Below, piece after piece: positions 38,101 through 41,100 of a DNA stretch of 64,000 bases. The position numbers and the translations under genes were made by a program. This DNA is from Allacma fusca (lineage: Eukaryota > Arthropoda > Collembola > Symphypleona > Sminthuridae), in the NCBI GenBank assembly GCA_947179485.1, contig OX359247.1, forward strand, positions 25,768,801-25,832,800, given 5' to 3'. Position 1 is the first letter of the stretch. The number at the start of each line of letters is the position of its first letter. The notes beneath the pieces are model-generated. The model made no database searches. It was not told the DNA's origin and worked only from the letters and a program-made list of their open reading frames with translations.

Positions 38101-41100
38101 CCCAGTGAAAACTAAAAATAGCATTGATGTATTAGCAGTTTTTAAGAAAATATTGAAGAATTCAGGAAGAAAGCCAAAGAGAATTCAATGTGACAAAGGG
38201 GGTGAATTTAAAAAAGATTTCAAAGAATTTTGCACGAATAATGGAATTGAAATCTTTCATGTTCAATCAGAACTGAAAGCGTGTATCGTTGAAAGATTTA
38301 ATCGAACGATTATGGAAAAAATAAGTCGATATGTACAGCATAAAGGAAGCTACAGATTTGTTCATGTTCTGCAAAAGTTAGTTCGAAACTATAATAACAC
38401 AGTTCATTCCAGCATAAAACTTAAGCCGATAAATGTTAATTCCAAAAATGAAATGGAGGTGTGGTTCCATCTGTATGGAAATAAGGAACTAAAATCATAT
38501 GATAAGCCCAAATTTAATGTTGGCGATCGCGTTCTCATTTCTATTGATAAAAATTGTTTTGAGAAAGGTTATTCCAAACGATTTAAACCAGAGGTTTTTA
38601 CCGTAAATAGAATAGGAAATTCAAACCCTCGCATGTATTACTTAACCGATCCTGAAGATAATGCAGATATGGAAGGGGGGTTTTACAGTCAAGAACTTTC
38701 AAAGGTTAATTATTAATAAGGTATTATGTGTTAGGATATAAAAACAAGTTTCTATATTGTTTGATTTCTCCTGAAAACTATATGCTGAGAATTAACATGA
38801 TCGAAGAAAGATCTGAACATGATTGTCAGAGGAAAACGGGATGGTGCAAACGTTTGAGAATGCCCTTGTTTGAGCGTTCCACGGTTTTTTGAAAACGTTT
38901 TTTGGCGACTCCAAGGTTATGAACCTAAAAAAATGGAGCATAAATACCGCGCTTGTTCCTGCAATTTGTATCATTCAACTTCTGACATCTCAACTTGCAT
39001 AACATACATTTGAGTTCAAGAATTCTTTGTTACTACAATATTCCTATTATCCGCATTAAAACAGCAGTTACACCAGGAAAAACGTTAAAGTAAGTGCATA
39101 CCTGCAAAAGCGTCTGCAGGCATGCCTTTGGTTGAAAATTTGTTACTAATATTAATATCATTGCTGAAATGCATGGCTGTATCTTGAAAACCTTTACGTT
39201 ATTGTTTACGCTGTTCAAATTTTTCAGAGAACTCAACAAGAAAATGGATACTGAAATTAACCAATGTATCAAAGCTGTTGATGGTGAGATCACTCGATCT
39301 GAACCTGTAATGGATTTGTCTGTTAAAGGCAAAGTCTGCAGCAGTGAACCTGATACTCCAATGGATTTATCGGTTCAAAGCAAGGTCTCTGCCGATGATG
39401 CTCCAACGGATTTATCTGTTAAAACAAATCCATCAGCCAATGATGTTCCAATGGACTTAACTACTACGGACAAGGTCTCCGCCAACGAATTGGACGAGGA
39501 AGTGGAAGCTGCAACGTTGAAATGTCAAGAAACGCAGCTGGACGGTCCAACACGTAAGCGGTTCCCATCCTTAGAAACTATTCCGGAGGAATTGAACGAG
39601 ACTGCACGTGGTGATGATGAGGCGGGGTTTGGGGGACCGAAACCCGAAGTTTATCGTAAACCCTATTTCAAACTCCATGGGCATCCCAAGGATCCTAATC
39701 GCCCCAAGGTATGGTACTCTCGTTCTGAAGATGGTCAACGTTTGTTTATGAACGTTCAGCGAACCACTCTGAATGGGAAAAAGATGCGTGTTAATTGGAA
39801 GATGGAGCAGACACCTGAGATTATCAGTAACCTTGTGTACTACTACAACACATGCCGGGGTCAAATAAGTGACATTCATGATACGTTGATGGACTGTATG
39901 GCCCATGTTGATGGGCGGATACGTCTAAACAAGGGTTTCAATCGCGACCCAAACGTTCCAGAAAATTTTTAACCTTGTCCAGAAAAAACAACAACAATAA
40001 TAAACGACAATATTCTGAGCATAAATACAGCAGTCGACGCATTTCTTAAATCATTCTAGCGACAACCATTGAACGCATCTCACCCGCATGGCTTTTCAAA
40101 TAATCATCTCAATTTTTTTCTTTTTTCTGACAATCGGCATTAACTGCCTACTATCGATTTACCTCCATAACCATTGTTCATTCGTGCGAACTTCAAGCAT
40201 TTCTCACATTAACAGCAGCAGTAATGGCTCAAGCACAGCTGGTTAAGGCCGCGATGGAAATTGAACACACCATTAATAGTAAGTGGACAAAATCCCGTCC
40301 CCACTGATAACCTCCTGCCCCTGCTCCCCGCCGCCGCCGCCGCCGCCGCGCTTCCGTTACGGTTTGGCGAAAAAGGAGGGGGAGGGAAAAAATCCCAAAC
40401 CTTACCCATCGTCCCACCCTTCCTTCGTACCTCGTTCGGAAGCATGCATAATATTTAAGTTGAGGTATTAATTAATTTTTGTAATTCACAGAAGTTGTAG
40501 CGGACTCTGTTAGAGAACCGGATAGTTCAATTGGACAGGATGTTTGTGGAACATTTGACTGGGACAAGAATCCCCCCATGACTTCTGAAGTTACCTCGCT
40601 GGGATGTAACAAGAAGTTGGTATACAATAAGCGGAAACCAGCTGCACCCGTTAAGAACGCTGCCGTTGTGAAAAGCATCATGCAAAAAATGAAGGGAACT
40701 GATGTTCCTATCAGGCAAAAGCGCGCTTTGCGATCTGACAAGATTTATTCCAAACCTTTGCCAAGCTTCTGCTCCGCATGCAAGGATGAATATGATAGGC
40801 AAGACATTACGAAGACTACGTTTGCTCAAATTGATTGGGGATGTAAATCGTGTGACGAGAGTCAAATTACTCTAACTCAAAATCAAAGTACCATAACCAT
40901 GCTGATGACTGATTTCAAGGATATTGCTATGCATTACATTATTAATTTTTGAATCATTTATACAACCTTTTATTTCTGATTAATAAATACAATACAATTC
41001 GGATCTGGAAATACATTGCTTCTGAGTCTATAATTATCATTTTGTGTCTGACTGCAATCAATCATAAGGTATCCATGAGGAACTGAAATGCACTCCTTGT

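Follow-up and report, generated by a model that had tools for sequence, protein, structure and literature searches.

A Polinton of the springtail Allacma fusca carries a gene, here called the DLS gene, whose product bears tandem DLS motifs that appear, chiefly in the first two of four units, to be under purifying selection inside a fast-drifting region, and the chance that these motifs dock the host corepressor CtBP is close to even, if slightly below it. The gene lies within a 64,000-nucleotide stretch of contig OX359247.1 (the window), and its features are collected in Table 1.

The element enclosing the gene is a Polinton/Maverick, as indicated by TIRs, a 6-bp TSD, and a retroviral-type integrase found together with a type-B DNA polymerase. 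The TIRs are 72 nt long (29098-29169 and 48188-48259, 92% identity) and are flanked by exact copies of the TSD ATTGTA (29092-29097 and 48260-48265). The integrase matches the rve profile (E 2.5e-13) and PolB the DNA_pol_B_2 profile (E 3.4e-12), while a packaging-type ATPase (A32/IVa2-type) matches Pox_A32 at the cut-off of 22.8 (E 7.3e-5) and a putative adenovirus-type protease gives a weak match to Peptidase_C5 (E 4.5e-3, 17.1 vs the cut-off of 21.3). Among the 7999 candidates scored, 18 are homologues of the presumed MCP (E<=0.001), with up to 67% identity. The initial annotation, which had assigned the gene to a Polinton and given it a TATA promoter of its own, is supported on the first point by these TIRs, TSD, integrase and PolB, and on the second by the promoter described below.

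Table 1. Features of the Polinton and of its DLS gene (window positions; residues numbered from MDTEI)
Feature	Position	Strand	Basis or remark
Polinton, both ends present	29098..48259		19.2 kb; TIRs and TSD
Core promoter: GAGCATAAATAC (TATA) with initiator-like ATCATTC	38936..38976	+	Sequence; comparison with families B and C
N-terminal extension of 25 codons, probable true start	39169..39243	+	Coding-type conservation
Reported ORF, 242 aa from MDTEI (267 aa if from 39169)	39244..39972	+	ORF list
Unit 1, VMDLSVKGK, residues 22-30	39307..39333	+	V[ML]DLSVK in 37/37 full-length copies scored
Unit 2, PMDLSVQSK, residues 39-47	39358..39384	+	MDLSVQ in 35/37 full-length copies scored
Unit 3, PTDLSVK, residues 54-60	39403..39423	+	Family B PTDLSIK, family C LIDLP
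Unit 4, PMDLTTT, residues 69-75	39448..39468	+	Family B SMDLSAA, family C none
LKCQE (LxCxE, Rb-type), residues 92-96, acidic linker	39517..39531	+	Family A only
TRKR basic patch, residues 103-106	39550..39561	+	Identical in three family representatives; TSKR in L035
C-terminal domain, residues 136-242	39649..39969	+	90/107 columns invariant across three family representatives

The host genome (392.7 Mb in 91 contigs) holds the DLS gene in at least 40 places, all of which were read; they correspond to 41 matching rows, two of which represent one split place, and to 40 scored out of 74 first-look candidates, a sample in which copies lacking the DLS motifs could have been missed. Full-length, stop-free frames are present at 37 of the 40 scored places (L018, L036 and L037 are decayed or cut), and belong to three families: family A, which includes the window copy (17 full-length copies, 98-100% DNA identity to it), family B (12 copies, 75-76% identity) and family C (8 copies, 72% identity, one of them with an 82% stretch). 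Many copies are near-identical, with at least 13 rows at 1311-1315 bits displayed as 100%, and family A Polintons therefore seem to have spread recently.

The sequence GAGCATAAATAC occurs without mismatch only twice within the 64 kb, at 38936 and 40017. Both sites are inside the Polinton, upstream of adjacent plus-strand genes, and each is followed by ATCATTC after 33-34 bases. The core of this promoter, ATAAATAC with ATCATTC, is also present upstream of the DLS gene in the two family B and two family C copies compared. Translation probably begins at 39169 rather than 39244, giving a protein of 267 aa, because the 25 codons preceding 39244 show the evolution typical of coding DNA and stay open in 37 of the 37 full-length copies scored. 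These codons open with M and, over one copy per family, show a pS of 0.60 and a pN of 0.04, with 12 of the 15 variable columns at codon position 3. The N-terminus so extended is hydrophobic or amphipathic, and includes the stretch LLFTLFKFF. An intron in the 5'UTR (39092-39227), with which translation would start at 39244, was rejected, its GTAAGT donor being within an insertion of family A, and is also countered by the coding-type evolution of the upstream codons; an alternative spliced form may nevertheless exist. Of the six frames, the DLS gene shows gene-like codon use in its own only.

In the window copy, DL[ST] occurs at residues 24, 41, 56 and 71. The resulting distances of 17, 15 and 15 residues agree with the spacing of 15-18 first reported for these motifs, whereas their description as four PxDLSx(K/R) motifs holds in part: there are four DL[ST] units and three of them fit PxDL[ST], but only PTDLSVK fits PxDLSx(K/R) fully, and in the first unit (PVMDLS) the P position is occupied by V. 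What we take to be the ELM expression for CtBP ligands fits two of the four units. In 100,000 protein shuffles, at least four DL[ST] were found in 2 and at least three PxDL[ST] in 0, figures that exaggerate the improbability of the array, since its units are tandem duplicates of one another (TRF: 45-base period, 2.4 copies, 78% matches). When the window copy is taken by itself, its DLS triplets changed less than in a neutral simulation (p = 0.029; p = 0.157 for any 3-codon window), so that the case made by this copy is suggestive, not strong.

Comparison among the families changes the definition of the motif. The selected element appears to be a tandem [M/L]DLSV(K/Q)xK pair rather than a PxDLS array, because the proline drifts: strict PxDL[ST] sites number three per protein in family A (two in L035), one in family B and none in family C, and the P position of unit 2 is P, A or S, depending on the family. 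The PxDLS array, which the initial annotation had regarded as the conserved feature, was rejected as such, and what is kept is the DLS core of units 1 and 2. The annotation had also named homologues of the C-terminal domain without any PxDLS motif as evidence that would speak against docking; such homologues exist (family C, 8 of 8), but xDLS itself is present in 37 of 37 full-length copies scored. The units of family C are VLDLSVKGK, SMDLSVQDK and LIDLPTNTT, with no fourth unit, and among its 8 full-length copies (VLDLS, SMDLS or SMDVS, LIDLP) two xDLS remain in 7 and one in the eighth. Units 1 and 2 are both kept in 35 of the 37 copies, the two exceptions to MDLSVQ being L031, which has MDVS and keeps unit 1 alone, and L040, which gives no match there and keeps units 1, 3 and 4. 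Unit 3 reads PTDLS in 16 of 17 family A copies (PTDIS in L035) and in 12 of 12 family B copies, and LIDLP in 8 of 8 copies of family C.

With unit borders set after seeing the data, and with one representative from each of three families that amount to three evolutionary points in a single genome, 15 of the 17 columns in units 1 and 2 are invariant vs 15 of 90 in the rest of residues 16-135, all four units excluded (Fisher p = 2e-8). Units 3 and 4, kept out of both sides of this test, have 2 of 6 and 0 of 7 invariant columns, respectively, and are weakly kept across families. The best-conserved 9-residue windows of residues 16-135 fall on units 1 and 2, followed by residues 103-111. Between families A and B, pS/pN is 0.53/0.00 in unit 1 and 0.50/0.05 in unit 2, compared with 0.44/0.31 in the spacers, 0.39/0.35 in the linker and 0.45/0.07 in the C-terminal domain. 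For the DLS cores of units 1-3 in the three families, pN is 0.03 and pS 0.39; the DLS of unit 3 is uninformative alone because no synonymous change is present there.

Residues 16-135 are presumably disordered, judging from their composition and drift, and the TRKR patch that they contain is a possible minimal nuclear localisation signal. The C-terminal domain showed no known fold and no relative outside the host genome in protein, PDB, Pfam and IMG/VR searches. A search of 5.8 billion proteins with the DLS gene product gave 166 candidates, none at E<=1, and a further 5.8-billion-protein search gave 4, none at E<=10. In the IMG/VR scans no relative of the DLS protein was recognised; one scan gave 9 loci, 4 of which lacked any frame with a pair of MDL[STAGRC]V; the frames in the other 5 were judged unrelated by eye. 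A scan of other genome contigs likewise gave no relative of the gene. AlphaFold2 single-sequence models of the DLS protein and of the BIR-like protein considered below had pLDDT values of 37 and 33, too poor for a fold search.

These features can be explained by a Polinton regulatory protein in three parts, comprising an N-terminal segment that is short and either hydrophobic or amphipathic, a region, presumably disordered, with two to four tandem docking motifs of the [VPAS][ML]DLSV(K/Q)xK type, and the conserved C-terminal domain. Persistence of a short motif in drifting surroundings is characteristic of docking sites, and the most likely receptor of the DLS motifs would be host CtBP, at its xDLS cleft. 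CtBP tetramers could be bridged by two or more motifs spaced 15-17 residues apart, and the sequestration or forced polymerisation of CtBP would then lift CtBP-mediated repression. Disorder, CtBP as the partner, nuclear action and inactivation are steps that we infer. Other xDL[ST] variants of this kind are presumably VLDLSTK of LCoR, PMDLSMK of Knirps and PFDLTTK of EVI1; in the literature searched, the strings PMDLSMK and PFDLTTK were not found, and VLDLSTK was not among the matches listed. The proposal as a whole, that Polintons in this host encode a protein devoted to antagonising CtBP, one which bridges CtBP tetramers as RAI2 does, by means of largely proline-less DLS tandems, and so disables a master corepressor of the host in convergence with adenovirus and herpesvirus oncoproteins, is best regarded as speculative and somewhat unlikely.

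CtBP has been described as a corepressor of bilaterians, and its core is more than 70% identical between arthropods and vertebrates (PMC9907507). Docking of the DLS motifs to CtBP is given roughly even odds because proline-less tandems bind CtBP in EBNA3A and RAI2. EBNA3A of Epstein-Barr virus has the CtBP sites ALDLS and VLDLS (PMC2883600); like the DLS protein it is viral with two proline-less xDLS sites, VLDLS being also the first unit of family C, and it differs in that CtBP binding has been demonstrated for EBNA3A and is a prediction for the DLS protein. No match to EBNA3A was obtained in the protein, Pfam and PDB searches with the DLS protein. In RAI2, two ALDLS motifs are separated by 21 residues of linker; it is mainly the LDL core that contacts CtBP, which RAI2 polymerises and so inactivates (PMC11187106). 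Speaking against the proposal, two sites in RAI2 raised affinity only modestly over one, with no cooperativity (PMC11187106). Filaments still form with a variant whose linker is shorter by 11 residues (PMC11187106), and the start-to-start spacing of that variant, 15 (by subtraction), compares with 15-17 between the DLS units. RAI2 resembles the DLS protein in its tandem xDLS motifs, short linkers, and a segment that is unfolded in RAI2 and presumably so here, and at least two xDLS motifs with short linkers are found in 35 of the 37 full-length copies, by way of units 1 and 2. It differs in being cellular and in having two motifs 26 residues apart from start to start, compared with two to four at 15-17, and polymerisation of CtBP has been demonstrated for RAI2 and is a conjecture for the DLS protein. 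The original idea of a docking motif is upheld as regards selection on DLS amid drift and the documented affinity of proline-less xDLS tandems for CtBP, but not as regards PxDLS, which is unconserved.

The conserved block runs past DLS into V(K/Q)xK, and the residues flanking LDL in RAI2 are described as lacking specific contacts (PMC11187106), which could mean that the tandem [ML]DLSV(K/Q)xK docks another partner, one that reads the whole block of 8-9 residues, its likeness to CtBP ligands being coincidental. Such a partner might come from the host or be one of the element's own structural or replication proteins. SVK and SVQxK are conserved as well as DLS while the proline typical of CtBP ligands drifts, and the hydrophobic LLFTLFKFF does not demand nuclear action; on the other hand, proline-less xDLS is a documented class of CtBP ligand with tandem architecture, and the TRKR patch fits nuclear action. 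We consider a different partner a serious possibility, clearly short of even. A quite different view is that tandem duplication within a disordered stretch produced the array neutrally and that the array binds nothing. The units are indeed clear tandem duplicates, units 3 and 4 vary, family C lacks the fourth, and the test within the window copy has little force, but the cross-family comparison contradicts neutrality, since units 1 and 2 hold the best-conserved windows and change mostly synonymously, which makes this view barely credible.

If CtBP is the partner, the DLS protein might recruit it to Polinton chromatin as a corepressor that keeps the element quiet, instead of disabling it. The conserved C-terminal domain could tether the protein to DNA, and DNA-binding transcription factors recruit CtBP via PxDLS (PMC6068344). 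Recruitment is improbable, given that no DNA-binding domain was recognised in the DLS protein by profile searches (including Pfam) and that the tandem spacing is like that of the inactivator RAI2. Capture or inactivation of CtBP would be more likely than its recruitment as a repressor, because the spaced motifs could bridge CtBP tetramers.

The initial annotation compared the gene with adenovirus E1A, whose PxDLS motif competes for CtBP and thereby relieves repression (PMC5930299). Both proteins are viral with a PxDLS motif (families A and B) and, in family A, with LxCxE, but PLDLS is at the C terminus of E1A inside its NLS, whereas the DLS array is near the N-terminus (E1A from PMC5930299). 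No E1A match was found in PDB, Pfam and 5.8-billion-protein searches, and the likeness would be functional at most. A functional counterpart in the full sense would target both CtBP and Rb, through PxDLS and LxCxE, and would be paired with an anti-apoptotic BIR protein of the element. LKCQE is in an acidic stretch and fits what we take to be the ELM Rb expression. The gene at 29693-31249 (+), encoding a 518-aa protein with an internal duplication (by eye), has a weak BIR (inhibitor-of-apoptosis) match (E 4.4e-4). The 'oncoid' genes of adintoviruses reportedly resemble Rb-interacting and antiapoptotic proteins (PMC10812802). Weighing against such a counterpart, LxCxE is present in 17 of 17 full-length copies of family A, 0 of 12 of family B and 0 of 8 of family C, and [LI].C.E arises in 3.8% of shuffles and in 2 of 13 other element proteins scanned. 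Rb targeting is not a conserved trait, because LxCxE is absent in B and C, and E1A-like targeting through this motif was rejected; LKCQE in family A is probably due to chance or of recent origin. The BIR-like match consists of two stretches and is under the Pfam cut-off (21.2 vs 22.9), and its full-length counterpart in family C, at L054:3163-4848, of which all but the first 34 residues were scanned, has no BIR match at E<=1, for which reasons a firm IAP annotation was rejected. In sum, a functional E1A counterpart is very improbable.

Two further candidates were rejected, namely an FPxxET segment common to the DLS protein and the BIR-like gene (E 0.13, lost in families B and C), and LETIPE at residues 110-115, presumably a PP2A-B56-like motif, which is confined to family A, L..I.E occurring in 4.3% of shuffles. 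Upstream of one family B copy (L053, C10:8963800-8968800), no ORF of at least 150 aa is present where the BIR-like gene would be expected, and the element there may differ in length or have undergone rearrangement.

That relatives of Polintons have host-control genes is, as a general idea, already published. The adintovirus oncoid genes are similar to the DLS gene in encoding host-manipulation proteins of Polinton-related viruses (PMC11071296, PMC10812802), the class being defined by short motifs (PMC11071296), and are dissimilar in that the proteins they resemble are Rb-interacting and antiapoptotic ones (PMC10812802); neither CtBP nor DLS is mentioned in the main text of PMC11071296. In the literature searched, which had most subscription journals outside its coverage, neither CtBP together with Polinton nor a CtBP-type tandem in Polintons was found. 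Polinton and retinoblastoma co-occur in papers that, judging by their titles, deal with mammal TEs, fish TEs and Xiphophorus genomes, and also in PMC10812802. If the motifs bind CtBP, Polintons, often treated as transposons, would have a host-control gene of the DNA-tumour-virus type, placed on a scaffold without a relative found in the searches here, and whether Polintons rewire host transcription to replicate would become testable. Even without CtBP, the gene encodes a selected Polinton protein that is common to three families and for which the searched collections gave no relatives, and conservation now delimits its short motif.

Other parts of the element were noted in passing. The gene adjoining the DLS gene (40017-40952, +) encodes a CxxC...CxxC protein and seems, by eye, to be spliced (exon 1 at about 40225-40278, exon 2 at about 40492-40952), and frames homologous to it adjoin the DLS gene in B and C copies (L038, L039). 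A 675-aa basic protein with several similar repeats (by eye), encoded at 35309-37336 (-), may serve as a core protein that condenses DNA. At 47470-48060, on the inner side of the right terminal repeat, a stretch beginning TTTCCGAAGGGTACCTGACAGTATACATTCTTAG is repeated several times (by eye).
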